Of a stretch of DNA of 64,000 nucleotides, positions 36,009-48,562 are shown one piece after another. The notes beneath the pieces were generated by a model that had not been told where the DNA came from, did not search any database, and saw only the letters and a list, made by a program, of their open reading frames with translations. The stretch is from Kutzneria chonburiensis (GTDB lineage Bacteria > Actinomycetota > Actinomycetes > Mycobacteriales > Pseudonocardiaceae): assembly GCF_028622115.1 (NCBI RefSeq), contig NZ_CP097263.1, positions 6,820,001 through 6,884,000 on the forward strand, in the 5' to 3' direction. Both the position numbers and the translations under genes were made by a program. Positions within the stretch are counted from its first letter, which is position 1. Each line of letters starts with the position of its first letter.

Positions 36009-36905
36009 GTGCCACGCTGGCGTGACGGGGCGGACGCGGAGCTCGAGCGGATGGCCGAGCTGGCCGGCGAGGCATCGGCCGAGGCGGCGGTGGCGGCCGC
36101 GGCCGATCTCGAGGCCGCGCTCGCGGTGCCGCCGGACCTGACCGCCGCCGCGTTCTTCGACGTCGACAACACGATGATGATGGGCGCCTCGATCTTCCAC
36201 TTCGCCCGCGGCCTGGCCAGCCGGAAGTACTTCACCACCGCCGACCTGGCCAGTTTCGCCTGGCGGCAGCTGCGGTTCCGGCTGGGCGGCAAGGAGAACC
36301 CGGACAGCGTGCGGGCCAGCCGCGAGCAGGCGCTGGGCTTCGTGGCCGGGCGCAGCGTGCAGGAGCTCGTCGACCTCGGCGAGGAGATCTACGACGAGCT
36401 GATGGCGGCCAAGATCTGGTCCGGCACCCGGGCGCTGGCCCAGATGCACCAGGACGCCGGGCAGCGGGTGTGGCTGGTCACCGCGACTCCGGTCGAGCTG
36501 GCCTCGATCATCGCGCGGCGGCTCGGCCTGACCGGGGCGTTGGGCACCGTCGCCGAGTCCCGTGACGGCGTCTACACCGGCCGGCTCGTCGGCGACCTGC
36601 TGCACGGCAAGGCCAAGGCCCACGCCGTCCGGGCGCTCGCCGCCCGTGAGGGCCTCGACCTGCGGCGCTGCACCGCGTACTCGGACTCCATCAACGACGT
36701 GCCCATGCTGTCCACCGCCGGCACCGCCGTGGCCGTCAACCCCGACCCCGGTCTGCGGGAGCTGGCCCGCCGCCGCGGCTGGGAGATCCGCGACTTCCGC
36801 ACCGGCCGCAAGGCCGCCCGCATCGGCGTGCCCACCGTCCTGGGCGCCGGCGCCCTGGCCGGCGCCGTCGCCGCCGGCATCGCCTACCGCCGCCGCTCCT
36901 CCTAG
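36009..36905 (+). CDS. HAD-IB family hydrolase (SerB1-like)
   Basis: This 298-residue protein has motif [10 protein letters not shown] (Asp51, Asp53), motif II in [10 protein letters not shown], a conserved Lys in [12 protein letters not shown] and motif [14 protein letters not shown]. It resembles phosphoserine-phosphatase-like HAD enzymes such as Rv0505c. The C-terminus holds a hydrophobic helix ([17 protein letters not shown]) with a basic end, so it may be membrane-anchored. The GTG start has GGAGG upstream. The substrate is unproven. Confidence 0.9.
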
Positions 36906-37521: not shown

Positions 37522-38487
37522 GTGAGTGACGACGTGCTCGTCATCGGGGCCGGTGTGATCGGCCTGACCACCGCGGTGTGCCTGGCCGAGGCGGGCGTGC
37601 GGACCAGGGTGATGAGCACCGACCTGCCGCGGCAGACCACGTCGGCGATGGCCGGCGCGATGTGGGGCCCGGCCTTCGCCGAACCAGCCGATCGGGCCCT
37701 GGACTGGAGCCGGGTCGGCCTCGACGAGTTCACCCGGCTGGCCCGCGATCCGGCCACCGGCGTCCGCCTCACCCGCGGCCGGATGGCCAGCCGCGGTGCG
37801 CTGCCGCTGGACGACCCGCCGCCGCAGGTCACGATGGTCCCGGACCGGGTTGACCTGCGTCGCGCCGAGCTGCCGGCCGGCTTCACCAGCGGGCAGTGGG
37901 CCCGCGTTCCGCTGATCGACATGCCGCGCTATCTGGGCTACCTCACCGGCCGGCTGACCGCGGCCGGCGGCCGGCTGGACATCCGCACGGTCGGTCGGCT
38001 CAGCGAGGTCGTCGACGAGGCGCCGGTGCTGGTCAACTGCAGCGGCGTCGGGGCCCGGCGACTGGTGCCGGACCTGACCGTGCGAGCGTGTCGCGGGCAG
38101 CTCGTGGTGGTGGCCAATCCGGGCATCGAGGAGTTCTTCCTGGAGATCTCCACCGAGCCGGAGTTCACCCACTATTTCCCGCACGGGGACCAGGTTGTGC
38201 TCGGCGGCGTGTCCACCGTCGGCGACTGGCGGCTGGAGCCCGACGCGGCCATCGCCTCGGCCATCCTCGAGCGCTGCGCCGCCGTGGAGCCGCTGCTGGC
38301 CGGCGCCCCGATCCTGGAGCACCGCGTCGGCCTACGCCCCGAGCGCGCGGCCATCCGGCTCGAAGCCCGCGCGCTCGCCGGCCGGCCCATCGTGCACTGC
38401 TACGGCCACGGCAGCCTGGGCGTCACCCTGTCCTGGGGCTCCGCCCGCGAGGCCGCCGACCTGGCCAAGGCACTGATCCAGGGCTAG
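37522..38487 (+). CDS. FAD-dependent D-amino-acid oxidase-like enzyme
   Basis: This 321-residue protein has an N-terminal FAD-binding VIGAGVIGLTTAV and the DAAO-type C-terminal GHGSLGVTLSWGSA. The middle contains CRGQLVVVANPG and the substrate-domain HYFPHGDQVVLGG. D-amino-acid oxidases deaminate D-amino acids and could use those freed from peptidoglycan, which would fit the wall-active genes downstream, though that link is speculation. The GTG start has little visible ribosome-binding site. Its stop overlaps the convergent lacI-type gene. Confidence 0.88.
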   Translation: MSDDVLVIGAGVIGLTTAVCLAEAGVRTRVMSTDLPRQTTSAMAGAMWGPAFAEPADRALDWSRVGLDEFTRLARDPATGVRLTRGRMASRGALPLDDPPPQVTMVPDRVDLRRAELPAGFTSGQWARVPLIDMPRYLGYLTGRLTAAGGRLDIRTVGRLSEVVDEAPVLVNCSGVGARRLVPDLTVRACRGQLVVVANPGIEEFFLEISTEPEFTHYFPHGDQVVLGGVSTVGDWRLEPDAAIASAILERCAAVEPLLAGAPILEHRVGLRPERAAIRLEARALAGRPIVHCYGHGSLGVTLSWGSAREAADLAKALIQG

Positions 38488-39500
38488 ACCGGCCGGCCCG
38501 TCGAGTTGCGGGCGACCAGCGTCGGCTGGAACAGGATCTGCTGGTGGGCGTGCTGTTCCGGCTGCTCGCACTCGGAGATCATCAGCTCCGCGGCCATCCG
38601 GCCCATCTGGTACGTGGGCTGCCGGATCGTGGTCAGTGGCACGGCCGCCGACTCGGCCGCGTAGATGTCGTCGTAGCCGACCACCATGACGTCCTCGGGC
38701 ACCCGCACCCCGGCCCGCAGCAGCACGTGCATGACACCGACGGCCAGCAGGTCGTTGGCGCAGAACACGGCCCGCGGCTTTCGCTTGCCCTGCAACAACT
38801 TCTCCCCGGCGGCCCGGCCGGACGCCACGTTCATCGCCGGCACGACCACCTCCTGCAGGCCACCGCCCAGCGCGATGCCGGCGTTGCGCAGCGCGGCCTT
38901 GACGCCGGCCCGGCGGTCGGCGCACTGCCGGATGGCCGACGGCCCGGTGACGAAGGTGATCTCCTTGTGGCCCAAGCTCAACAGGTGCTCGGCGGCCAGC
39001 CGTCCGCCGGCCACGTTGTCCACCGACACGGAACACTGGTCGGTGCCCAGCGCCGCCCGGTCGACCAGGACCACCGAGGTGCCGACGTCGCGCAGCTGCC
39101 GCAGCCGCGTCGAGTCGTCGTGCACGGGCGTGATGAGCACGCCGGCGACCTGCTGCTCCTGGAGCACGCGCAGGTAGTTGCGCTCCTTGTCGTCGGACTC
39201 GTCGGAGTTGCCGAGGATGACCACGTACCCGTTGCCGTTGGCCACGTCCTCGGCCCCACGGGCGATGTCGGTGAAGAACGGGTTGGTCACGTCCATCACC
39301 ACCAGCCCGAGCACCTGACTGCGGCCGGCCCGCAGGGTGCCGGCCGCGCCGTTGCGCACGAAGCCGAGCTCGCCGATGGCCTGCTCGACCCGCAGCCGGG
39401 TGGCGTCGGCGACGACCTCGGGCCGGTTGAGCACGTGCGAGACCGTGCCGACGGACACGCCGGCCAGCGCGGCGACGTCCTTGATGCCCACGCGTCGCAT
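38484..39500 (-). CDS. LacI-family transcriptional regulator
   Basis: This 338-residue protein has the N-terminal LacI HTH with hinge (IKDVAALAGVSVGTVSHVLN, residues 5-25) and a sugar-binding core (LGLVVMDVTNPFFTDIARG, VVGYDDIYAAESAAVPLTTI). It is divergent from the secreted hydrolase/propeller genes. Two TTGAAnnnnTTCAA palindromes, one in this divergent gap and one before 42619, are the likely operators. Its effector is probably a mono- or oligosaccharide. Confidence 0.94.
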   Translation of the reverse strand: MRRVGIKDVAALAGVSVGTVSHVLNRPEVVADATRLRVEQAIGELGFVRNGAAGTLRAGRSQVLGLVVMDVTNPFFTDIARGAEDVANGNGYVVILGNSDESDDKERNYLRVLQEQQVAGVLITPVHDDSTRLRQLRDVGTSVVLVDRAALGTDQCSVSVDNVAGGRLAAEHLLSLGHKEITFVTGPSAIRQCADRRAGVKAALRNAGIALGGGLQEVVVPAMNVASGRAAGEKLLQGKRKPRAVFCANDLLAVGVMHVLLRAGVRVPEDVMVVGYDDIYAAESAAVPLTTIRQPTYQMGRMAAELMISECEQPEQHAHQQILFQPTLVARNSTGRPV

Positions 39501-39634
39501 GGCGGTCCTCCTCCGATTGAAACGTGTAACAACTCAAGTAGGGCCAGCTTAGGGTACTCCGCGCACGAAATTCCCAGCTACAGGGGTTGTCAACGGCATC
39601 TCGGTTTCAAACTGCGCCGTTCGGCCCAACCTTC

Positions 39635-39664
39635 TTGACGGCCCTGCCGGCCCGCTGTTTGAAT
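39635..39664 (+). promoter_or_regulatory. Candidate promoter for the HTH-hydrolase-propeller operon
   Basis: TTGACG (39635-39640) and TTGAAT (39659-39664), 18 bp apart, resemble -35 and -10 elements of a housekeeping promoter. The -10 lies inside the LacI-type operator that follows, so binding would block transcription. No transcript evidence is available. Confidence 0.45.
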
Positions 39665-39672
39665 CATTTCAA
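39659..39672. promoter_or_regulatory. Candidate LacI-type operator 1
   Basis: TTGAATCATTTCAA is a palindrome with TTGAA and TTCAA half-sites four bases apart. The same arrangement recurs at 42545-42558 in front of the second operon. AT-rich symmetric sites like this stand out strongly in this GC-rich region. Confidence 0.65.
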
Positions 39673-39700
39673 TGAACACGGCAGACAGCGGGGGGCTGTG

Positions 39701-39913
39701 ATGCTGACATTGACCACCGACGGCGCCATGAACCGGAACGACGTGACCCTGCTCGGCCTGCTGGCCACCGGGTTGCCCGCGGATTCCGTGGCCAAGCGGC
39801 TGAATCTGAGCCCGCGCACGCTGCGCCGACGGCTGCGCGAGGTGTGCGACAAGGTCGGGGCCGGCACCCCGATCGAGGCCGTCGCCTGGGCGGCCCGCCG
39901 CAATCTCATCTGA
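39701..39913 (+). CDS. Small LuxR-type HTH protein
   Basis: This 70-residue protein is almost only a GerE/LuxR DNA-binding domain: LLGLLATGLPADSVAKRLNL and SPRTLRRRLREVCDKVGAGT, ending VAWAARRNLI. It has no receiver or ligand domain. ATG 39701 follows GGGGGCTGTG; more upstream codons are open but would run through the operator. It is the first gene of the operon and 31 bp before the hydrolase, so it may be a local activator or co-regulator. Confidence 0.8.
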   Translation: MLTLTTDGAMNRNDVTLLGLLATGLPADSVAKRLNLSPRTLRRRLREVCDKVGAGTPIEAVAWAARRNLI

Positions 39914-39944
39914 GCTGACCATCACTCATCTTCAGGAGCATTCC

Positions 39945-41336
39945 GTGACCGATGACGCACGCCTCGGTACGACCATGAGCCGCCGCTGGCTGTTCCGTGC
40001 CGCCGGTGTCGGCGCCGCCGCGCTGGCCGCCCCGGCCGTGGCCTCGGCGACGCCGCGGCCGGCCGTCACGCCCGCCGCCACCCCGTTGCAGCTGGGCAAT
40101 GTGTGCAGCTCGACGCCGCTGTTCACCGACACACGCTTCCCGATCGGCGCGTTCTGGCCACCGCCGCCGTCCGCGTCGACCGCCGCCAACTACGCCGACA
40201 TGGCGGGCGCCGGCTTCACCTTCTTCGTCACCGGCAACTACCAGCTCGACCCGCAGAGCATCGACTACGCGCTCGGTTTCGCCGACCAGAACAACCTCAA
40301 GGCGCTGGTGGCCACGGATCCGTCGGTCAAGGCGGTCGGCGAGATGTTCACCATCGACGACAGCCACTCCGGCCCGCTGACCATCAGCACCGCCGACGCC
40401 CGTGCGCTGGTCCAGCAGGCGACCGCGCGCTACGCCCGGCACACCTCCTTCGCCGGCTTCAGCCTCTACGACGAGCCGGACCTGTTGGGTTCCCGCAACG
40501 CCTCGCTGGGCAAGGCCACCCAGATCGTGCACGAGATGGCGCCGAGCGCGATGGCGTACACCAACCTCTCGTACGCGCTGGAAGTCGACTACGCCAAGAC
40601 GCTGAGCAACTTCGTCAGCCAGGTCGCGCCGCCGCTGATCTCCTTCGACTACTACCCGCTGCGCCGCGACGGCGAGGCGACGAACTTCTTCCAGTGCTGG
40701 GCCCAGGTCCGGCAGGCCGGTCTGGCCAGCGGGCTGCCGACCTGGACCTACATCCAGACGCTGTCCAGCGGCCTGCTCAAGGAGCCGACCGCGGCCGACC
40801 TGGCCTGGCAGGTCAACGTCAGCCTGGCCTACGGCTGCAAGGGCATCCAGTACTTCACCTACTGGACGCCGGATCCGGGCCGCGGCGAGGGCTTCGGCCC
40901 GGCGCTGATCGACCTGAACGGCACCAAGACCGTCCGCTACGGCTACGCCCAGACGCTGAACAACACGTGGCTGGCCCCGGTGGGCAAGGAGCTGCTGCCG
41001 CTGGTGTCGGAGTCGGTGGTGCACGCCAACGAGAGCACCCAGACGCCCGGCACCACGCCGTTCAGCCCGGACGGTTATCTCACGTCGGTGTCGGGAACCG
41101 TTGTGGTGGGCCGATTCCGCAGCCCGAACAGCGCGGTCAAGGACCGTTGGGTGTTCGTGGCCAACCGGTCCAACACCGCCGCGGCCAACGTCACCTTGAA
41201 CACCAACACCTCGACCGTGCACGGCATCGGCAAGTTCGACCCGAGCAAGGGCTCGTACACCGCGCAGTCCGGTTCGCAGATCACCGTGTCGCTGCCGGCC
41301 GGCGGCGCCGCCCTGTACCAGCTGAGCGCGTCATGA
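39945..41336 (+). CDS. Tat-secreted TIM-barrel glycoside hydrolase-like protein
   Basis: This 463-residue protein has a twin-arginine signal (MSRRWLFRAAGVGAAALAAP, residues 11-30). A probable TIM barrel follows, with candidate catalytic carboxylates Glu177 in GFSLYDEPD and Asp234 in ISFDYYPL, and the barrel-end IQYFTYWTPDP near 305. A C-terminal beta domain lies at about 350-463. The layout resembles clan-A-like glycoside hydrolases; the exact family is not recognised. The GTG start has AGGAG seven bases upstream. Its stop overlaps an ATG of the next gene. Confidence 0.75.
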   Translation: MTDDARLGTTMSRRWLFRAAGVGAAALAAPAVASATPRPAVTPAATPLQLGNVCSSTPLFTDTRFPIGAFWPPPPSASTAANYADMAGAGFTFFVTGNYQLDPQSIDYALGFADQNNLKALVATDPSVKAVGEMFTIDDSHSGPLTISTADARALVQQATARYARHTSFAGFSLYDEPDLLGSRNASLGKATQIVHEMAPSAMAYTNLSYALEVDYAKTLSNFVSQVAPPLISFDYYPLRRDGEATNFFQCWAQVRQAGLASGLPTWTYIQTLSSGLLKEPTAADLAWQVNVSLAYGCKGIQYFTYWTPDPGRGEGFGPALIDLNGTKTVRYGYAQTLNNTWLAPVGKELLPLVSESVVHANESTQTPGTTPFSPDGYLTSVSGTVVVGRFRSPNSAVKDRWVFVANRSNTAAANVTLNTNTSTVHGIGKFDPSKGSYTAQSGSQITVSLPAGGAALYQLSAS

Positions 41337-41350
41337 CCGGGGGGAACACC

Positions 41351-42406
41351 ATGAATCGTCGCAAAACCCTTGCGCCACTGGCGGTTCTGGTCGCGGTCAT
41401 GGCCGTGGTCGTCGGCGCCGCCTTCTCCTTCGGCGCACGCCAGGACACCAGCCGACCGGTCGCCGTGACCGCGGCCGCCGGCAGCGCGTCCGACGCGCAG
41501 CTGGTGTTGCGCACCACGGGCAACGACCTGCTGCACACCATCCGGTCCACCGCCAACCGGACCTGGACGGCCGCCGGCAGCCTGCTCGACCAGACCAGCC
41601 GGCCGTCGAGCACGATCACCCACATCGCCAGCACCTACGTCAACGGCGACCTGGACATCGTGCTCAGCGACGCGACCGGCGTCTACCTGGCGGTACGGCA
41701 CTCCGACGGCCGCTGGGAAGGCATACAGCGGATTGCCACCTGCGCCAACGTCACCTCGTTGGCCGCGGCCGCGGTCGGCACGGATCTCCAGGTCGTGATC
41801 GCGACCGACAGCGGCGCCAACCTCTTCCACGCCGTTCGCCACAGCGACGGCACATGGACCTCGCTCGGCGACGTGAAGAGCGTGGCCGGCGGGTTGACCG
41901 GGGCGATCACCCAGGTCGCTGCGGCCGGCGTGAACGGGCAGCTCCAGGTGGTGGCGCTGGCCGGGGGCAAGGTCATGCACGCCGTGCGGGACGCCGGCGG
42001 GACCTGGTCGAGCTTCGGCGACGTGCTCGCCGCGTACGACACCGGCCACGTGGTCGGTACGCCATCGGGGATCGCGGTGGGTGCGGTCGGCACCGGGCTG
42101 CAACTCCTGGTGCAGGGCGGTAACGGAACATCGTTGTGGCACATGGTCCGCGGCTCGGACGGCAACTTCAGTGCGCCCGGTGACGCGCTGAACGCCATGC
42201 ACCATCCGGGGACCTTCGTTTCCGTCGCGGCCGCGGGCGTCAACGGCGATCTCCAGATTGCCTTGGTGGACAACGCCGGCGCCGTGTGGCACACGATCCG
42301 GCACAGCGGCGACGGATCATGGGACGCGGCCGCACAGCTGACGTCATCCGTCGTGCCGGGTATGCCGCCGTCGGGCGTGGTGGAGGCGGCGATCGCCGGC
42401 AGCTGA
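41351..42406 (+). CDS. Secreted beta-propeller repeat protein
   Basis: This 351-residue protein has an N-terminal signal or anchor (LAPLAVLVAVMAVVVGAAF) and then six or so repeats of about 50 residues of the type LQVVxxxxxGxxxHxVRxxDGTWxxxGDV. The pattern is that of tectonin- or PLL-type lectin propellers. ATG 41351 has GGGGGGAA upstream; an ATG at 41333 overlaps the hydrolase stop as ATGA. With no catalytic module, it may be a carbohydrate-binding partner of the hydrolase. Confidence 0.8.
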   Translation: MNRRKTLAPLAVLVAVMAVVVGAAFSFGARQDTSRPVAVTAAAGSASDAQLVLRTTGNDLLHTIRSTANRTWTAAGSLLDQTSRPSSTITHIASTYVNGDLDIVLSDATGVYLAVRHSDGRWEGIQRIATCANVTSLAAAAVGTDLQVVIATDSGANLFHAVRHSDGTWTSLGDVKSVAGGLTGAITQVAAAGVNGQLQVVALAGGKVMHAVRDAGGTWSSFGDVLAAYDTGHVVGTPSGIAVGAVGTGLQLLVQGGNGTSLWHMVRGSDGNFSAPGDALNAMHHPGTFVSVAAAGVNGDLQIALVDNAGAVWHTIRHSGDGSWDAAAQLTSSVVPGMPPSGVVEAAIAGS

Positions 42407-42424
42407 TCCGTACGTAGTCCACTG

Positions 42425-42467
42425 AGGACGCTCGTCGGGCTGAAAAGGCCTGGCGGGCGTCCTTTTT
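42425..42467 (+). terminator. Rho-independent terminator after the first propeller gene
   Basis: AGGACGC (42425-42431) pairs with GCGTCCT (42457-42463), with further partial pairing inside the loop, and is followed at once by a T5 run. This is the most classical intrinsic terminator in the window and separates the two propeller operons. Confidence 0.8.
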
Positions 42468-42544
42468 CGTGAGCGGTGCGTGGCCGGATCCGGCCACACC
42501 AAAGCCTTTCCCGGTGTGCTCTTCGCTTGTAGCGTTGTTCTTGG

Positions 42545-42558
42545 TTGAAGCGATTCAA
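42545..42558. promoter_or_regulatory. Candidate LacI-type operator 2
   Basis: TTGAAGCGATTCAA has the same TTGAA-N4-TTCAA form as the site at 39659-39672. It overlaps a second inverted repeat, GAAGCG...CGCTTC (42547-42565). It lies 60 bp before the NlpC/P60-propeller start, in the right place to repress the second operon. Confidence 0.65.
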
Positions 42559-42618
42559 ACGCTTCCCGCCCCTGACGTTCATCGCTCCCTGACACATCAA
42601 GGTGAAGGTGGCATTCCC

Positions 42619-44106
42619 ATGTTCTCGTCCGCTGTTCGGACCGGCTCGACCACGTCCGGCCTGCGCCGGCTGATGACGGCCGGCCTGCTCACCGCCGTGG
42701 CCGCGAACGGCCTGACCACGTTCGCGGCCCCGCAGGCCGGCGCCGCGTCCTCGGTCGACGGCCCGATCACCCGCAGCGAGGTGCTGGCCAGAGCGCAGTA
42801 CTGGGTCGACAAGCATGTGCCCTACAGCCAGTCGGTGTACGCCCCCGATCCGCAGGGCCGCGGCTACCGCTCCGACTGCTCGGGCTACGTCTCGATGGCC
42901 TGGCACCTTGGCACCAGCCTGGTCACCCAGACCCTGCCGCAGGTCTCCACCCAGATCTCCTACGACGACCTGCTGCCGGGCGACGCGCTGGACAAGGAGT
43001 CGGAGCACGTCGTGCTGTTCGACCACTGGGTGGACGGCGCGCACACGCTGGCCCAGGTCTACACCGAGCCGGACTTCGGCCAGTTCGCCAAGCACGAGAA
43101 CTGGACCAGGTCGACGCTGCTGTCCGAGGGCTACCACGCCTACCGCTACAAGAAGATCGTCAACGACGTGGCCCAACCGCAGCCGCTGCAGATCGGCGCG
43201 ATCACCGGCAATGGCGGCCTTTTCCACACCATCCGCAACACCGACGGCACCTGGGCCGGCGGCTTCGGCGACGTTGACACGCAGGCCGGCCCCCTCGACA
43301 TCGTCGCCGCCGACGGCGCGCTGACCGGCGGCGACATGCAGATCGTGGCGATCTCCCGTGACGGCAAGCTGCACCACACGGCCCGCCTGGCCAACGGGAA
43401 CTGGCTGCCCTGGGGCGATGTGAACGCCCAGACCGGCGCGAGCTTCACCGCCGCCGATGTGGCCGTGGCCTCGGTGGACAACGAGCTCAACATCGTCGTC
43501 ACGGACACCGACGGCACTGTGTGGCACGCCATCCGCCACCTCGACGAGAGCTGGACCGCGTTCGGCAACGTCAACGTCGAGGCCGGCAGCGCCGACGGCA
43601 AGGCCGTCAAGGTCTCCGCCACCGCCGTGCACTCGCCGTCCGGCTCCGACACCGACCTGCACGTGGCCGTCACCAACGCCGACGGCAAGATCTGGCACAC
43701 CGGCCGCAAGCACGAGGACGGCACCTGGCTGCCCTTCGGCGACGTCGAGGTGCAGGCCGGCCCGCTGGCCAAGGTGGCCGACATCGCCATCGCCGGCACC
43801 GGCGTCGATCTGCAGATGCTGGCCGTGACGGCCGACGGCAAGATCTTCCACACCGGCCGCAAGTCCGACGGCACCTGGCTGCCCTTCGGCGACGTGATCG
43901 CCGCGACCGGCACCCCGTTGGCCAGCAACGCCGTCACGATCGACGCCGCCGGCGAGCCCAACGGCGATCTGCACGTGGTCATCGGCACCGCCGACGGCAA
44001 GGTCGTGCACACCGCCCGCAAGACCGACGCCACCTGGCTGCCCTTCGGCGACGTCGAGTCGCAGACCAGCAACCCCGGCACCGTCGTCAACGTCACCGCG
44101 GCCTGA
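42619..44106 (+). CDS. Secreted NlpC/P60-type amidase with beta-propeller domain
   Basis: This 495-residue protein has a signal peptide (to about residue 43), an NlpC/P60-like cysteine peptidase domain with Cys87 in YRSDCSGYVSMAW and His130 in SEHVVLFDHW, then from about 183 to the end six repeats of about 50 residues (for example DLHVAVTNADGKIWHTGRK, DGTWLPFGDV). NlpC/P60 enzymes cut peptidoglycan stem peptides or other amides. The propeller probably binds glycans. It is followed after 13 bp by a paralogue that carries the same propeller on a different catalytic head. Confidence 0.86.
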   Translation: MFSSAVRTGSTTSGLRRLMTAGLLTAVAANGLTTFAAPQAGAASSVDGPITRSEVLARAQYWVDKHVPYSQSVYAPDPQGRGYRSDCSGYVSMAWHLGTSLVTQTLPQVSTQISYDDLLPGDALDKESEHVVLFDHWVDGAHTLAQVYTEPDFGQFAKHENWTRSTLLSEGYHAYRYKKIVNDVAQPQPLQIGAITGNGGLFHTIRNTDGTWAGGFGDVDTQAGPLDIVAADGALTGGDMQIVAISRDGKLHHTARLANGNWLPWGDVNAQTGASFTAADVAVASVDNELNIVVTDTDGTVWHAIRHLDESWTAFGNVNVEAGSADGKAVKVSATAVHSPSGSDTDLHVAVTNADGKIWHTGRKHEDGTWLPFGDVEVQAGPLAKVADIAIAGTGVDLQMLAVTADGKIFHTGRKSDGTWLPFGDVIAATGTPLASNAVTIDAAGEPNGDLHVVIGTADGKVVHTARKTDATWLPFGDVESQTSNPGTVVNVTAA

Positions 44107-44119
44107 GAGGCGAACTTCC

Positions 44120-45682
44120 ATGCCTAGCAACGTTTTACGCGCCGCCGTCGCGGGCGCCGGCGTAGTCGCCGCACTGGCCACCGGCCCGCTCGCCTCGGCC
44201 GACACCGCGTCCACCGGCAGCCCGACCCTGTCCAACGCCGCGCTGGCCACGGCGTCGACCGCACCGTGCGAGGCCGGCGGCGTCACCGCCGCCGACAACG
44301 CACTGGCCCACCAGCTCTCGCCGACCCTGAACGGCCCGCGGCTCGGCCCGAGCGTCAACGGCTACCAGGTCTCCTGCGCCCGGGTGATCATCGAGACGGT
44401 CCAGGGCCGTGGCTTCACCAACTCGCGGGCCGCCGTGATCGCGGTGACCACCGCCATCACCGAGAGCAACCTCCAGAACCTCACCCAGGCCCTTGACCAC
44501 GACAGCCTCGGCCTGTTCCAGCAGCGGGCGTCGTGGGGCACGGTGGAGCAGCGAGAGAACCCGACCTTCGCCACCAACAGCTTCCTCAACCACATGGTCA
44601 ACCTGCCGCCGCAGTACCCGCGCTGGGACGTCGACCCGGACATCGGCGACGTGTGCCAGCACGTGCAGATCTCGGCCGACCAGGCCGCGTACGACCCCGA
44701 GGTGCACGACGCGACGGCCCTGGTCAACGCGCTGTGGAACAACACGTCCACGTCGCCGCAGCCGCTCCAGGTGCTGGCCGCGACCAGCAACGGCGGTCTG
44801 TTCCACACCATCCGCAACACCGATGGCACGTGGGCCGGTGCCTTCGGCGATGTCGAGGCGCAGATCAGCAAGCTCGACGTCGTCGCCGTCGATGCCGCCC
44901 GCACCGGCGGCGACACCCAGATCGTCGCGGTGACCCGGGACGGCCGCCTGTTCCACACCGCGCGGCTGGCCAACGGCAGCTGGCTGCCGTGGGGCGACGT
45001 GCTGGCCGTCACCGGCGCCGGCTTCAAGGTCGCCGATGTCGGTGTGACGTCGGTGAACAACGAGCTCAACGTGGTCGTCAGCGACACCGACGGCAACGTG
45101 TGGCACGCCATCCGCCACACCACGGAGGACTGGACCGCCTTCGGCAACATCAAGGTCGAGGCCGGCGACTACATCGGCAAGGCGGTCAAGGTCTCGGCCG
45201 CGGCGGTCAAGTCGCCCAACGGCGCCATCTCCGACCTGCACGTGGCCGTGGTCAACGACGCCGGCAAGATCTGGCACACGGCCCGCAAGTCCGAGGACGG
45301 CACGTGGCTGCCCTTCGGCGACGTCGAGACGCAGGCCGGCCCGCTGGCCCCGGTGGCCGACATCGCCATCGCCGGCACCGGCGTCGACCTGCAACTGGTC
45401 GCCGTCACGACCGACGGCAAGATCTGGCACACCGGCCGCAAGTCCGACGGCACCTGGCTGCCTTTCGGCGACGTCATCGCCGCCACCGGCACTCCCCTTT
45501 CCGGCGCCGCCACCATCGACGCCGCCGGCGAGCCCAACGGTGATCTGCACGTGGTCATCGGCACCGCCGACGGCAAGATCTGGCACACCGCCCGCAAGAC
45601 CGACGGCACCTGGCTGGGCATCGGCGATGTCGAGTCCCAGACCAGCAACCCCGGGGCGATCGTCAACCTGACGGCCGCCTGA
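44120..45682 (+). CDS. Secreted lysozyme-like domain fused to beta-propeller
   Basis: This 520-residue protein has a signal peptide (to about 28), a lysozyme-superfamily domain at about 50-200 with AITESNLQNL (candidate Glu115) and DHDSLGLFQQR (127-137), the pattern seen in actinobacterial peptidoglycan-hydrolase-like proteins, and a propeller from about 205 that is nearly the same as in the preceding gene. GAGAGG precedes the ATG by nine bases. The likely target is the peptidoglycan glycan strand or a similar polymer. Confidence 0.84.
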   Translation: MPSNVLRAAVAGAGVVAALATGPLASADTASTGSPTLSNAALATASTAPCEAGGVTAADNALAHQLSPTLNGPRLGPSVNGYQVSCARVIIETVQGRGFTNSRAAVIAVTTAITESNLQNLTQALDHDSLGLFQQRASWGTVEQRENPTFATNSFLNHMVNLPPQYPRWDVDPDIGDVCQHVQISADQAAYDPEVHDATALVNALWNNTSTSPQPLQVLAATSNGGLFHTIRNTDGTWAGAFGDVEAQISKLDVVAVDAARTGGDTQIVAVTRDGRLFHTARLANGSWLPWGDVLAVTGAGFKVADVGVTSVNNELNVVVSDTDGNVWHAIRHTTEDWTAFGNIKVEAGDYIGKAVKVSAAAVKSPNGAISDLHVAVVNDAGKIWHTARKSEDGTWLPFGDVETQAGPLAPVADIAIAGTGVDLQLVAVTTDGKIWHTGRKSDGTWLPFGDVIAATGTPLSGAATIDAAGEPNGDLHVVIGTADGKIWHTARKTDGTWLGIGDVESQTSNPGAIVNLTAA

Positions 45683-45700
45683 GCCCCCTCCCCGGGGAAA

Positions 45701-45737
45701 GGCCGCTCGGCCGTCACCAGTGGACGGCCGAGCGGCC
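45701..45737 (+). terminator. Terminator hairpin after the propeller operon
   Basis: Perfect 15-base arms, GGCCGCTCGGCCGTC and its complement, flank a 7-base loop, 19 bp after the stop codon. There is no T run, as is common in actinomycetes. Confidence 0.7.
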
Positions 45738-45812: not shown

Positions 45813-46301
45813 TCAGGTGGTGACGGTCAGCGCGAAGTTGATCCGGTCCGGCGTCGGATAGGTGATCGTTCCTTCGCCTTTGGCGTTGGCGTACTGGCCG
45901 GTGCCGCCGACCACGGCCAGCGGGTTCTGCACCGGCGACGGCAAAACCATGGGGTGCATGGAGCTCAGGTGCAGCTCGCCCTTGCCGCCGGCGGTCAGCC
46001 GCAGCACGATCTTCATCTGCACGATCAACTTCGCCGGGTTGTCGGCGGTCACGTTGACCACGGTGCCGATCATCGAGCCGTCGCCGGCCGTGGCCCCGGA
46101 CGAGTCGAAGACGGCCAGCAGCATGGCGAAAGTCGTGCCGACCACGGCCTTGTCCAGCGGGGAACTGGCAGTCCTGCTGGCGACGAAGGTCGACTGGTCG
46201 TTCGTCGTCGCCGACGCGGTGCGGGCGCCGGCGACGACCAGCCCACCGGCGGCCATCGCCGGCGCCGCGAGCAAAGCGGATCTCCGCGACCACAGCGCCA
46301 T
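45813..46301 (-). CDS. Tat-secreted allene-oxide-cyclase/dirigent-like barrel protein
   Basis: This 162-residue protein has a Tat signal (WSRRSALLAAPAMAAGG) and an eight-stranded-barrel pattern that ends with the conserved VVGGTGQYANAKGEGT seen in allene oxide cyclase-like and dirigent-like proteins. Bacterial members may bind small lipophilic ligands or steer coupling reactions. Its function here is unknown. It converges on the propeller operon. Confidence 0.8.
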   Translation of the reverse strand: MALWSRRSALLAAPAMAAGGLVVAGARTASATTNDQSTFVASRTASSPLDKAVVGTTFAMLLAVFDSSGATAGDGSMIGTVVNVTADNPAKLIVQMKIVLRLTAGGKGELHLSSMHPMVLPSPVQNPLAVVGGTGQYANAKGEGTITYPTPDRINFALTVTT

Positions 46302-46371: not shown

Positions 46372-47349
46372 TCAGCCGAGCCAGACGTTGCGACGCTGGG
46401 TGAGCAGCCGGTAGAGGGTCTGCTGGATGGTCTCCCGGACCTGGTCGGTCAGGTTGAACACCAGCATCGGGTCCTCGGCCGCGCCCGGCTCGTACTGGTC
46501 GGTCCTGATCGGCTCGCCGAACTCGATGTACCACTTGGACGGCAGCGGCACCGCGCCCAGCGGCCCCAGCAGCGGGAAGGTCGGCGTGACCGGGAAGTAC
46601 GGCAGCCCGAACAGCCGGGCGATCAGCTTGATCTCGCCGATCTTCGGGTAGATCTCCTCGGCGCCGACGATGGACACCGGGATGATCGGCGTACGGGTCC
46701 GCAGCGCCGCCGACACGAAGCCGCCGCGGCCGAAGCGCTGGAGCTTGTACCGGTCCTTGTAGGGCTTGCCGACGCCCTTGAAGCCCTCCGGCCACACGCC
46801 GACCAGCTCGCCGCCGCGCAGCAGCCGCTCCGCGTCCGGGTTGCAGGCCAGGGTCTGGCCGGTCTTGCGGGCGATGGAGCTGATCATCGGCAGCCGGAAC
46901 ACCAGGTCGGCGCCGAGCATGCGCAGGTGCCGGTTGGCCGGGTGGTGCTCGTGCACCGCGACCGCGGTCATCACCGAGTCCATCGGCAGCGTGCCCGAGT
47001 GGTTGGCCACCAGCAGCGCGCCGCTGTCGGCCGGCACGTTGTGCAGGCCGATGGTCTCCACCCGGAACCACTTCTCGTACAGCGGCCGCAGCAGCGGCAT
47101 CATCACGTTGTCGGTCAGCTCGCGGTCGAAGCCGAACTCGTCGACCTGGTAGTCGCCGGTGATCCGGCGGCGCAGGAAGGCCAGCGTGTCGGCCAGCCGG
47201 CGCTCCCACTCGGGACCGGTCTCGGCCGCCTTGGCGGCGGTGTCCGCGGGCGGCGGCACCTGCTCCATCCGGGGCCGGGCGGGCGGCGCCGTGCGGGGCG
47301 CGGGCCGGTCGGTCGTGTTGTGCAACGGGATCACACGTGCGTCGGGCAT
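46372..47349 (-). CDS. Lysophospholipid acyltransferase family protein (PlsC-like)
   Basis: This 325-residue protein has a Pro-rich N-terminus and an acyltransferase domain with ANHSGTLPMD, a variant of the His-Asp motif with wider spacing, then LACNPDAERLL, VWPEGFKGVGKPY and PIIPVSIVGAEE. It matches the conserved actinobacterial protein Rv0502. ATG 47349 has a strong AGGAGG eight bases upstream; a GTG at 47370 overlaps the upstream stop. It probably acylates a glycerolipid precursor at the membrane. Confidence 0.88.
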   Translation of the reverse strand: MPDARVIPLHNTTDRPAPRTAPPARPRMEQVPPPADTAAKAAETGPEWERRLADTLAFLRRRITGDYQVDEFGFDRELTDNVMMPLLRPLYEKWFRVETIGLHNVPADSGALLVANHSGTLPMDSVMTAVAVHEHHPANRHLRMLGADLVFRLPMISSIARKTGQTLACNPDAERLLRGGELVGVWPEGFKGVGKPYKDRYKLQRFGRGGFVSAALRTRTPIIPVSIVGAEEIYPKIGEIKLIARLFGLPYFPVTPTFPLLGPLGAVPLPSKWYIEFGEPIRTDQYEPGAAEDPMLVFNLTDQVRETIQQTLYRLLTQRRNVWLG

Positions 47350-47366
47350 GGGTTCCACCTCCTCAC

Positions 47367-48410
47367 TCACCTGATCGGGATGCGGGCGGCGAGGTCGAGA
47401 ATGCCCCGCTCCGCCGCCGTCAGGGTGTCCACGTCGATCGCCGGGCGCAGCGCCCGGCCGCTCACGTAGTCGTCGAACGCCTGTGTTGTCGTCCAGCGCG
47501 GCGTGAAGCCGAAGTCACGCTGGAGCAGGGTCGTGTCCACGACGCGGCCGAAGTTCAGGAACCGCATCTGGTCGGGCGAGAAGTCGACCAGCCGCGCGCT
47601 GCGCACCAGCCGGCCGACGGTGGGCACCGCCATGCTCGGCACCGGCAGCGCGACCCGGCCGGCGCGGCGGATCGCCTGGGAGAGCATCAGCACGCCGTCG
47701 CCGCCGACGTTGAACACGCCGGGCAGGTCGTGCTGGGTGGCCCGCTCCATCACGGCCAGCGCGTCCTCGGAGTGCAGCAGCTGCATCCGGGCGTCGTAGC
47801 CGAACACCGTCGGCACGACCGGCAGGGCGAAATACCTGGTCAGCACGGTGTCGATGCGTGGGCCGATGAAGTTGGTGAAGCGCAGCGTGGTCACCGCGAC
47901 GTCCGGACGGCGCCGGGAGAAGCCGCGGACGTAGCCCTCGACCTCGACCGCGTCCTTGGCGTAGCCGCTGGACGGCAGCGCCTTGGGGGCCATGTCCTCG
48001 GTGAACATCGCCGGGTCGCGGGAGCTGGCGCCGTAGACCGCGCTGGTCGACTTGACCACCAGGCGGCGCACCACCGGCGAGCGCTGGCAGGCGGCCAGCA
48101 GCTGCATGGTGCCGATGACGTTCATCTCCTTCATCGCCGTGCGGCCGGTTGGTCCGGCCGGGTTGGCGGTGACGGAGGCGTGCACCACGGTGTCGACCCG
48201 GGCGCTGGCGATGACCTTGGTGATGAGCGGGTTGCGGATGTCGGCGCGGACGAACTCCGCCCGGCCCATCCGGCGGAGCAGGTCGCGGGGCGGTGGCACG
48301 GTGTCCACGCCGAGGACCCGTTCGATGGACGGGTCGGCGGCCAGGCGCGCGGCGAGGTGGCCGCCGAGGAAGCGGCTCACTCCGGTGACGAGTACGACAT
48401 TGGGCGCCAT
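47367..48410 (-). CDS. NAD-dependent epimerase/dehydratase (GalE2-like)
   Basis: This 347-residue extended short-chain dehydrogenase has the NAD-binding VTGVSRFLGGHLA, VVHASVTANP, and STSAVYGASS before SGYAKDAVE, where the usual YxxxK is shifted to YAK. ATG 48410 has GGGAG five bases upstream. It is coupled to the acyltransferase, the same pair as Rv0501-Rv0502. The substrate is uncertain. Confidence 0.87.
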   Translation of the reverse strand: MAPNVVLVTGVSRFLGGHLAARLAADPSIERVLGVDTVPPPRDLLRRMGRAEFVRADIRNPLITKVIASARVDTVVHASVTANPAGPTGRTAMKEMNVIGTMQLLAACQRSPVVRRLVVKSTSAVYGASSRDPAMFTEDMAPKALPSSGYAKDAVEVEGYVRGFSRRRPDVAVTTLRFTNFIGPRIDTVLTRYFALPVVPTVFGYDARMQLLHSEDALAVMERATQHDLPGVFNVGGDGVLMLSQAIRRAGRVALPVPSMAVPTVGRLVRSARLVDFSPDQMRFLNFGRVVDTTLLQRDFGFTPRWTTTQAFDDYVSGRALRPAIDVDTLTAAERGILDLAARIPIR

Positions 48411-48562
48411 GCGACTCCCTGCAAAGGCGGCGACGCGAGCGATGCTACTCGTCGTGACGGGCCGAAACAGGGGCCAGGTACACAGCATTGACGCAGGTCA
48501 CGCCGGTTTTACCCCGGTCTCACCCGATCGGCGGGATCTGGTCGCGCACCCGTAACGAAGCA

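Follow-up and report, generated by a model that had tools for sequence, protein, structure and literature searches.

Gene content and predicted LacI control

The window analyzed in this study is a 64,000-nucleotide stretch of the Kutzneria chonburiensis genome (positions 6,820,001–6,884,000 of contig NZ_CP097263.1, assembly GCF_028622115.1), part of a 10.41-Mb single-contig genome. It contains a locus in which a LacI-family gene faces two operons for secreted propeller proteins, including two putative wall hydrolases with closely similar tails. Judged from sequence, this pair of enzymes exemplifies a pattern that extends through the Pseudonocardiaceae and is invisible from the window alone. 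All six genes of the original prediction were found as open reading frames at their predicted positions.

The LacI-family regulator is encoded at 38484–39500 on the minus strand and matched the Pfam models LacI (1.9e-17, DNA-binding domain) and Peripla_BP_3 (8.8e-34, sugar-binding domain). The other five genes are on the plus strand. Operon 1 consists of a 70-amino-acid, one-domain helix-turn-helix (HTH) protein of GerE/Fis-like type (about 39701–39913), a hydrolase-like protein with a twin-arginine leader (39945–41336, start perhaps at 39975), and a bare propeller with a signal or anchor segment (41351–42406), which could be aligned over its full length to both other propellers. The support for the HTH protein was weak: HTH_8 (8.3e-5) was just above the Pfam cut-off and GerE (1.1e-4) just below it. 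Operon 2 encodes an NlpC/P60-like peptidase head (about residues 1–189) with a propeller tail (42619–44106) and a GH184-type muramidase head (about residues 1–217) with a propeller tail (44120–45682).

The proposed split into two operons was supported by a hairpin between them and by a palindrome before each. Folding of the interval between the bare propeller and NlpC genes revealed an intrinsic terminator at 42425–42467 on the plus strand, with an 18-bp stem and a U run (−34.6 kcal/mol, z −6.8). A pattern-based terminator scan did not report this hairpin, and a promoter scan gave nothing. The operator-like palindromes were TTGAATCATTTCAA at 39659–39672, before operon 1, and TTGAAGCGATTCAA at 42545–42558, before operon 2. 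The perfect pattern TTGAA-N4-TTCAA occurred at exactly these two positions of the genome; a control pattern, the same palindrome read backwards, occurred six times. The number of sites alone was ordinary (0 to 5 per genome in 59 other genomes), and what was unusual was that both preceded operons of one locus. The identical 14-mer TTGAATCATTTCAA also precedes the counterpart operon in Kutzneria buriramensis. Genome-wide, the palindromes thus stood before the genes presumed to be controlled and before little else.

There is good evidence, at the level of predicted operators, for a small LacI regulon over both operons, because the only two palindromes of the genome each precede one operon and the site is kept in K. 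buriramensis. The shared palindromes also supported the predicted link between LacI and the set of secreted propeller proteins. A weaker half-palindrome was present before lacI at 39517–39530, with three mismatches in the window and two in K. buriramensis; it points to a possible, unproven autoregulation of LacI.

Matched tails of the putative lysin pair

The muramidase head matched no lysozyme family in Pfam. It matched solved GH184 structures by phmmer with modest scores (8b2h, 1.5e-4; 8b2e, 6.2e-4). In the Kionochaeta GH184 enzyme, Glu41 is essential and Asp66 lies by the ligand site, according to excerpts of PMC10394673. By motif, their counterparts in the window head are Glu115, kept in 42 of 42 aligned rows, and Asp126, kept in 41 of 42. 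The lysozyme-like head of the original prediction therefore resembles a GH184-type muramidase. For the peptidase head, the NlpC/P60 model was unmatched in Pfam, NCBIfam and PHROGs, and a PDB sequence search gave nothing of note. The head carries a D-C-S-G motif followed further on by a His, which together we take to be the NlpC/P60 signature; Asp86 and His130 were each kept in 31 of 31 rows and Cys87 in 30 of 31. It was named "NlpC/P60-like" and no further, because the curated models were unmatched and the name rests on the motif. The retained residues bore out the claim of two peptidoglycan-hydrolase heads.

Tail-less GH184-type genes of about 190–200 amino acids were also found at three loci (L206, L208 and L209) in one shared, conserved chromosomal setting. 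These possibly represent a housekeeping branch of the GH184-type family.

The tails of the peptidase and the muramidase were 78% identical to each other, and each was about 33% identical to the bare propeller. The two fused tails matched the NCBIfam models beta_propeller_lectin (2.6e-13 and 4e-15) and CV39L_fam_lectin (1e-9 and 6e-8), all below the curated cut-offs: the matches to NF052348 and NF052350 reached 49.8 and 55.7 bits against a cut-off of 200, and 37.9 and 32.1 bits against one of 350. The bare propeller matched no NCBIfam lectin model. The claim that the propellers are lectin-related was thus upheld, at this level, for the two fused tails. A PDB sequence search with the propellers gave two weak pectinesterase matches (0.029 and 0.035) or none, and the propeller fold and blade number in all these proteins are sequence-based assignments. 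The three propellers, treated as one group in the original prediction, had to be divided: the bare propeller was placed with the hydrolase and not with the fused tails, because hydrolase and propeller form a single protein in Fodinicola and Kribbella.

Partner genes were then investigated across 297 Pseudonocardiaceae genomes, searched with each fusion at E ≤ 1e-20, scoring no more than five candidates in any genome. The muramidase fusion was matched in 59 of the 297. A total of 43 loci was compared: 28 with both fusions near each other (L114–L141), 12 with the muramidase only (L142–L153), L063, L064 and the window. One of them (L138) had no readable muramidase, which left 42 muramidase genes. 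Genes of fetched loci came from a simple codon-position caller, and head ends were set by BLAST ends. A tail of the same kind was found elsewhere in the fetched stretch for 41 of the 42 muramidase genes, with 47–100% identity; at the single miss, L135, the NlpC neighbor was nearly without a tail. An NlpC-head gene lay immediately before the muramidase on the same strand at 26 loci, this order being part of the test. Partners were placed differently at L118, where they are convergent, and at L140 and L141, where they are about 4.6 kb off.

Since these figures include loci chosen for a partner, the loci not chosen in this way were counted separately. A neighbor with a same-kind tail was present at 24 of 26 of them, with identities of 47–91%: 13 of 13 for L142–L153 with L064, 9 of 10 for L155–L164 (miss at L158), 1 of 2 for L205 and L207 (miss at L207, with a 178-amino-acid tail), and 1 of 1 for L210. 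L063 was excluded from this count because it had been fetched for two closely spaced propeller matches. The three tail-less loci stood outside it, and nine muramidase-search rows with frames of 240 amino acids or less were not among the fetched loci. Partner heads other than NlpC looked, by eye, like CHAP, M23 or VanY-type peptidases; at L146 the partner head lies beyond the contig. A third gene with a glycosidase-like head (by eye) and a related tail (41–43%) was found beside the pair at L116 (6916–8883), L117 (6833–8743), L124 (1416–3239) and L126 (6683–8620). Across the class, tails matched the FG-GAP, fungal fucose lectin, DUF346 and CV39L/BP39L propeller families. The window genome itself holds at least three differently tailed sets: the window pair, an NlpC pair with 92% identical tails (L114, 3057–6318) and a tachylectin-type set with 47% identity (L064, 7354–10033).

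The relation between heads and tails was investigated in the NlpC pairs. In 24 measurable pairs, the within-pair tail identity had a median of 90.5% (range 60–99%). Between 25 loci, at one of which a tail was truncated by the end of the contig, head identity was 39% for NlpC and 49% for the muramidase. Tail similarity escaped detection in 130 of 300 comparisons for one kind of tail and 140 of 300 for the other, and where it was detected it stood at about 25% identity. The tail of a protein's own partner was its best match in 34 of 48 cases. In the tail tree, 16 of 24 pairs were sisters; the other eight fell into clades shared with tails from one to three further loci. At L123 and L125, heads were 77% and 83% alike across loci, whereas tails were 61% and 58% alike across loci and 95% and 92% within the pairs. 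Third codon positions were 96% identical within the pair at L120. A family-permutation test (observed 24, expected 24) was uninformative, because at the linkage used almost every tail was assigned to a single family.

Old heads (39% and 49%) combined with young matched tails are best explained by tail replacement or conversion in both genes, for many NlpC pairs and not for all sets. The pair of the window would thus be a member of a Pseudonocardiaceae class, here called matched-tail lysins, whose tails appear very different between loci and alike within a pair.

The nearest relatives of the window tails were also determined. Apart from each other, the two tails had their best match among the sequences compared in a Streptomyces plasmid gene with a trypsin head, whose propeller was 33% identical (1.8e-34 and 1.7e-32); the closest tail of another lysin, L142, gave 5e-24 and 5e-22. 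The Streptomyces gene lies near an ALF-repeat gene, and its head matched PDB entries 8w20 (1.6e-54) and 9oee (7.7e-44). Both entries are titled "Secreted esterase", and we take them to be UmbA structures. Propellers of this kind are carried on plasmids by many heads, namely trypsin-like/S1, M23 and CehA/McbA. According to excerpts of PMC11062931 and PMC13274773, the UmbA lectins include many propellers and direct umbrella-toxin particles to rival Streptomyces, and one of them binds a teichuronic-acid-like polymer on wall teichoic acid.

In the K. chonburiensis genome, ALF-repeat proteins were found at five places and UmbA-like trypsin genes at L200, L201, L202 and L204; the fourth match of the propeller search there, a weak one, was one of these. 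K. chonburiensis probably makes several umbrella toxins, as several of the UmbA-like genes lie beside ALF-repeat proteins. The window tails resemble, in sequence, lectins that aim at other bacteria, because their nearest relative is the propeller in an ALF-repeat/UmbA-type locus.

The hydrolase block and neighboring genes

The nearest named relative of the LacI, HTH, hydrolase and bare propeller genes was found in K. buriramensis, which carries them as a block with proteins 72–88% identical to those of the window (LacI 88%, bare propeller 72%, HTH 74% over 43 amino acids). The surroundings are different there, and both the oxidase discussed below and the lysin pair are absent. Conservation of the ordered set was therefore found in part: of the 7 genus genomes, 2 had the four-gene block, and only the window genome had the complete six-gene set. 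A search for hydrolase relatives was positive for 12 of the 396 genomes from the phylum, 7 of the 297 from the family (the window genome counted) and 5 of the 7 from the genus. LacI, a propeller of that kind and the operator were all missing from each of the 11 other family loci fetched, and a widespread LacI–hydrolase block was rejected on this ground.

The hydrolase matched no family in Pfam, PHROG or NCBIfam and gave no PDB sequence match. Its DEP motif, with Glu177, was invariant in 7 of 7 relatives, among which a second catalytic acid was not identified. In a check against the GH-A clan, the window hydrolase matched no family and one of seven relatives matched GH42 weakly (E 0.29). A TIM barrel is the probable fold of the protein.

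Hydrolase paralogues in three genus genomes (L184, L187 and L190) are convergent with genes that resemble those for a galactofuranosyltransferase and a UDP-galactopyranose mutase. These neighbors hint at wall galactan as a substrate. In three other genus genomes, four to six bare secreted propellers of about 310–360 amino acids, without enzyme heads, stand in tandem beside a CorA-like gene named by eye (L056, 7958–14615; L057, 7496–13920; L058, 7941–12116).

A D-amino-acid oxidase gene next to lacI had been proposed as a downstream user of released D-amino acids. It is convergent with lacI, tail to tail. The link was given up because of this orientation and because the K. buriramensis locus has no match to the oxidase. 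The six-gene block and the oxidase are flanked by a HAD hydrolase gene (36009–36905) and an acyltransferase/epimerase pair (46372–48488). The block with the oxidase may be an insertion, because we assume these flanking genes to adjoin each other in many actinomycetes. A small secreted protein is encoded at 45813–46301 on the minus strand, convergent with the lysin pair; its likeness to a dirigent barrel was weak (Pfam Dirigent 1.1e-5, below the cut-off).

Interpretation and relation to known systems

The explanation tentatively preferred, with some reserve, is lectin-guided lysis by two enzymes from LacI-held operons, most likely for killing or digesting other bacteria, with matched tails on one target glycan. 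The LacI repressor would hold both operons shut via the two TTGAA-N4-TTCAA operators until a sugar signal lifted it. The cell would then secrete the glycosidase-like protein and its partner propeller, together with the NlpC/P60 peptidase and the GH184-type muramidase with almost the same tail. Both tails would bind one surface glycan of a target, presumably another bacterium, and so bring both enzymes to the same wall. Going by the enzyme families, one enzyme would cut the peptides and the other the glycan strands, and the glycosidase-like protein may act on the same or on an outer glycan. A wider claim is held more tentatively still: the pair may represent an unnamed two-gene class of weapon, in which a peptidase and a GH184 muramidase share a diversified propeller drawn from the pool of umbrella lectins. 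The tails of NlpC pairs would be replaced or homogenized together, a one-step change of target, and in the window such a pair would have been placed under a sugar-sensing LacI switch with a glycosidase and its lectin, as an inducible set for stripping walls.

Several results weigh against lectin-guided killing or against the breadth of the class. The other pair loci that were fetched (L063, L064 and L114–L174) had no LacI homologue, so LacI control was rejected as a constant of tailed pairs; LacI-type control is also commoner in feeding and catabolism than in warfare. Outside the Pseudonocardiaceae, a matched tail was absent from all nine GH184-type loci that could be read (no head was called at L174), and matched pairs were therefore not seen as a general actinobacterial trait. 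An M23-propeller gene of Streptomyces had no annotated adjoining partner of that kind. The tails of L128 and L134 showed ordinary descent, as did ten tachylectin-type sets, with 47–60% identity within a set and medians of 75% and 77% across loci. On these grounds, concerted change of the tails was rejected as a universal rule.

Because LacI control is typical of catabolism, the strongest rival is feeding on dead walls, in which the set would be induced by sugar to scavenge necromass and the propellers would keep the enzymes attached to insoluble debris in the manner of carbohydrate-binding modules. The glycosidase-like protein in the same regulon, and the glycosidase-like genes with related tails (41–43%) beside the pairs at L116, L117, L124 and L126, agree with such a role. 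By itself, however, scavenging leaves unexplained why tails diverge between loci yet match within NlpC pairs, and the closest match to the window tails came from a lectin of an umbrella-toxin locus; we consider this rival somewhat unlikely. Still less likely is remodeling of the producer's own wall, with lectin-anchored hydrolases acting in germination, branching or hyphal lysis. Growth is a frequent role of NlpC/P60 and lysozyme-type enzymes, and the fixed setting of the tail-less GH184-type genes (L206, L208 and L209) suggests that a housekeeping branch exists. The likelihood of self-directed remodeling is lowered because the fusions are patchily distributed (59 of 297 family genomes, E ≤ 1e-20) and one genome carries at least three differently tailed sets (window, L114 and L064); the kinship of the tails with the aiming lectins of umbrella toxins also speaks against it.

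The locus might also be no functional unit at all, its proteins being ordinary secreted hydrolases with tails alike through recent tandem duplication and a coincidental common operator. Duplication and shuffling are common, since such propellers sit on many plasmid-borne heads, and the plain descent of the ten tachylectin-type sets fits this explanation as well. It was judged the least probable of the alternatives and improbable in itself: in NlpC pairs, old heads (39% and 49% between loci) carry young tails (median 90.5% within pairs), 24 of 26 unselected tailed loci have a partner, and the genome has just two operator sites, one before each operon.

Lectin-guided lysis by two enzymes can be compared with several known systems. 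Umbrella toxins of Streptomyces are likewise secreted and lectin-aimed, with diversified lectins of which many are β-propellers. They have a trypsin-like UmbA head, a small UmbB and an ALF-repeat UmbC, whereas none of these was found at the window locus, where the lectin is fused straight to wall hydrolases. Modular bacteriolysins and phage endolysins also combine a wall-cutting head with a targeting tail. In contrast to them, the window has two neighboring genes with different heads and one type of tail that is kept alike. The fused tails share with CV39L/PLL lectins the matches to NF052348 and NF052350, but they lie far below the cut-offs and are part of enzymes rather than free lectins. The muramidase is tied to GH184 enzymes by its match to 8b2h and 8b2e and by the kept essential Glu and neighboring Asp. 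Bacterial GH184 members are without a cell-wall-binding domain, according to excerpts of PMC10394673, whereas the window muramidase has a propeller in that place.

In a search of titles and abstract openings of open-licence PMC papers, no description turned up of paired wall enzymes whose lectin tails change together; subscription papers were outside this scope, so this is no proof of novelty. The parts are of known kinds, and the matched-tail arrangement has a fair chance of deserving a name of its own.

If the proposed explanation is true, the locus would represent a second architecture of lectin-aimed antagonism in actinomycetes, with the lectin fused to lytic enzymes instead of being part of a toxin particle. 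The inducer of the compact LacI regulon could show what the set responds to. The propeller would also suggest a wall-binding domain for bacterial GH184 enzymes, previously described as without one. The family would hold a natural library of propeller tails, each on two different wall hydrolases; the prediction is that a pair's two enzymes share one wall glycan as their ligand and that pairs differing in their tails bind different bacteria.

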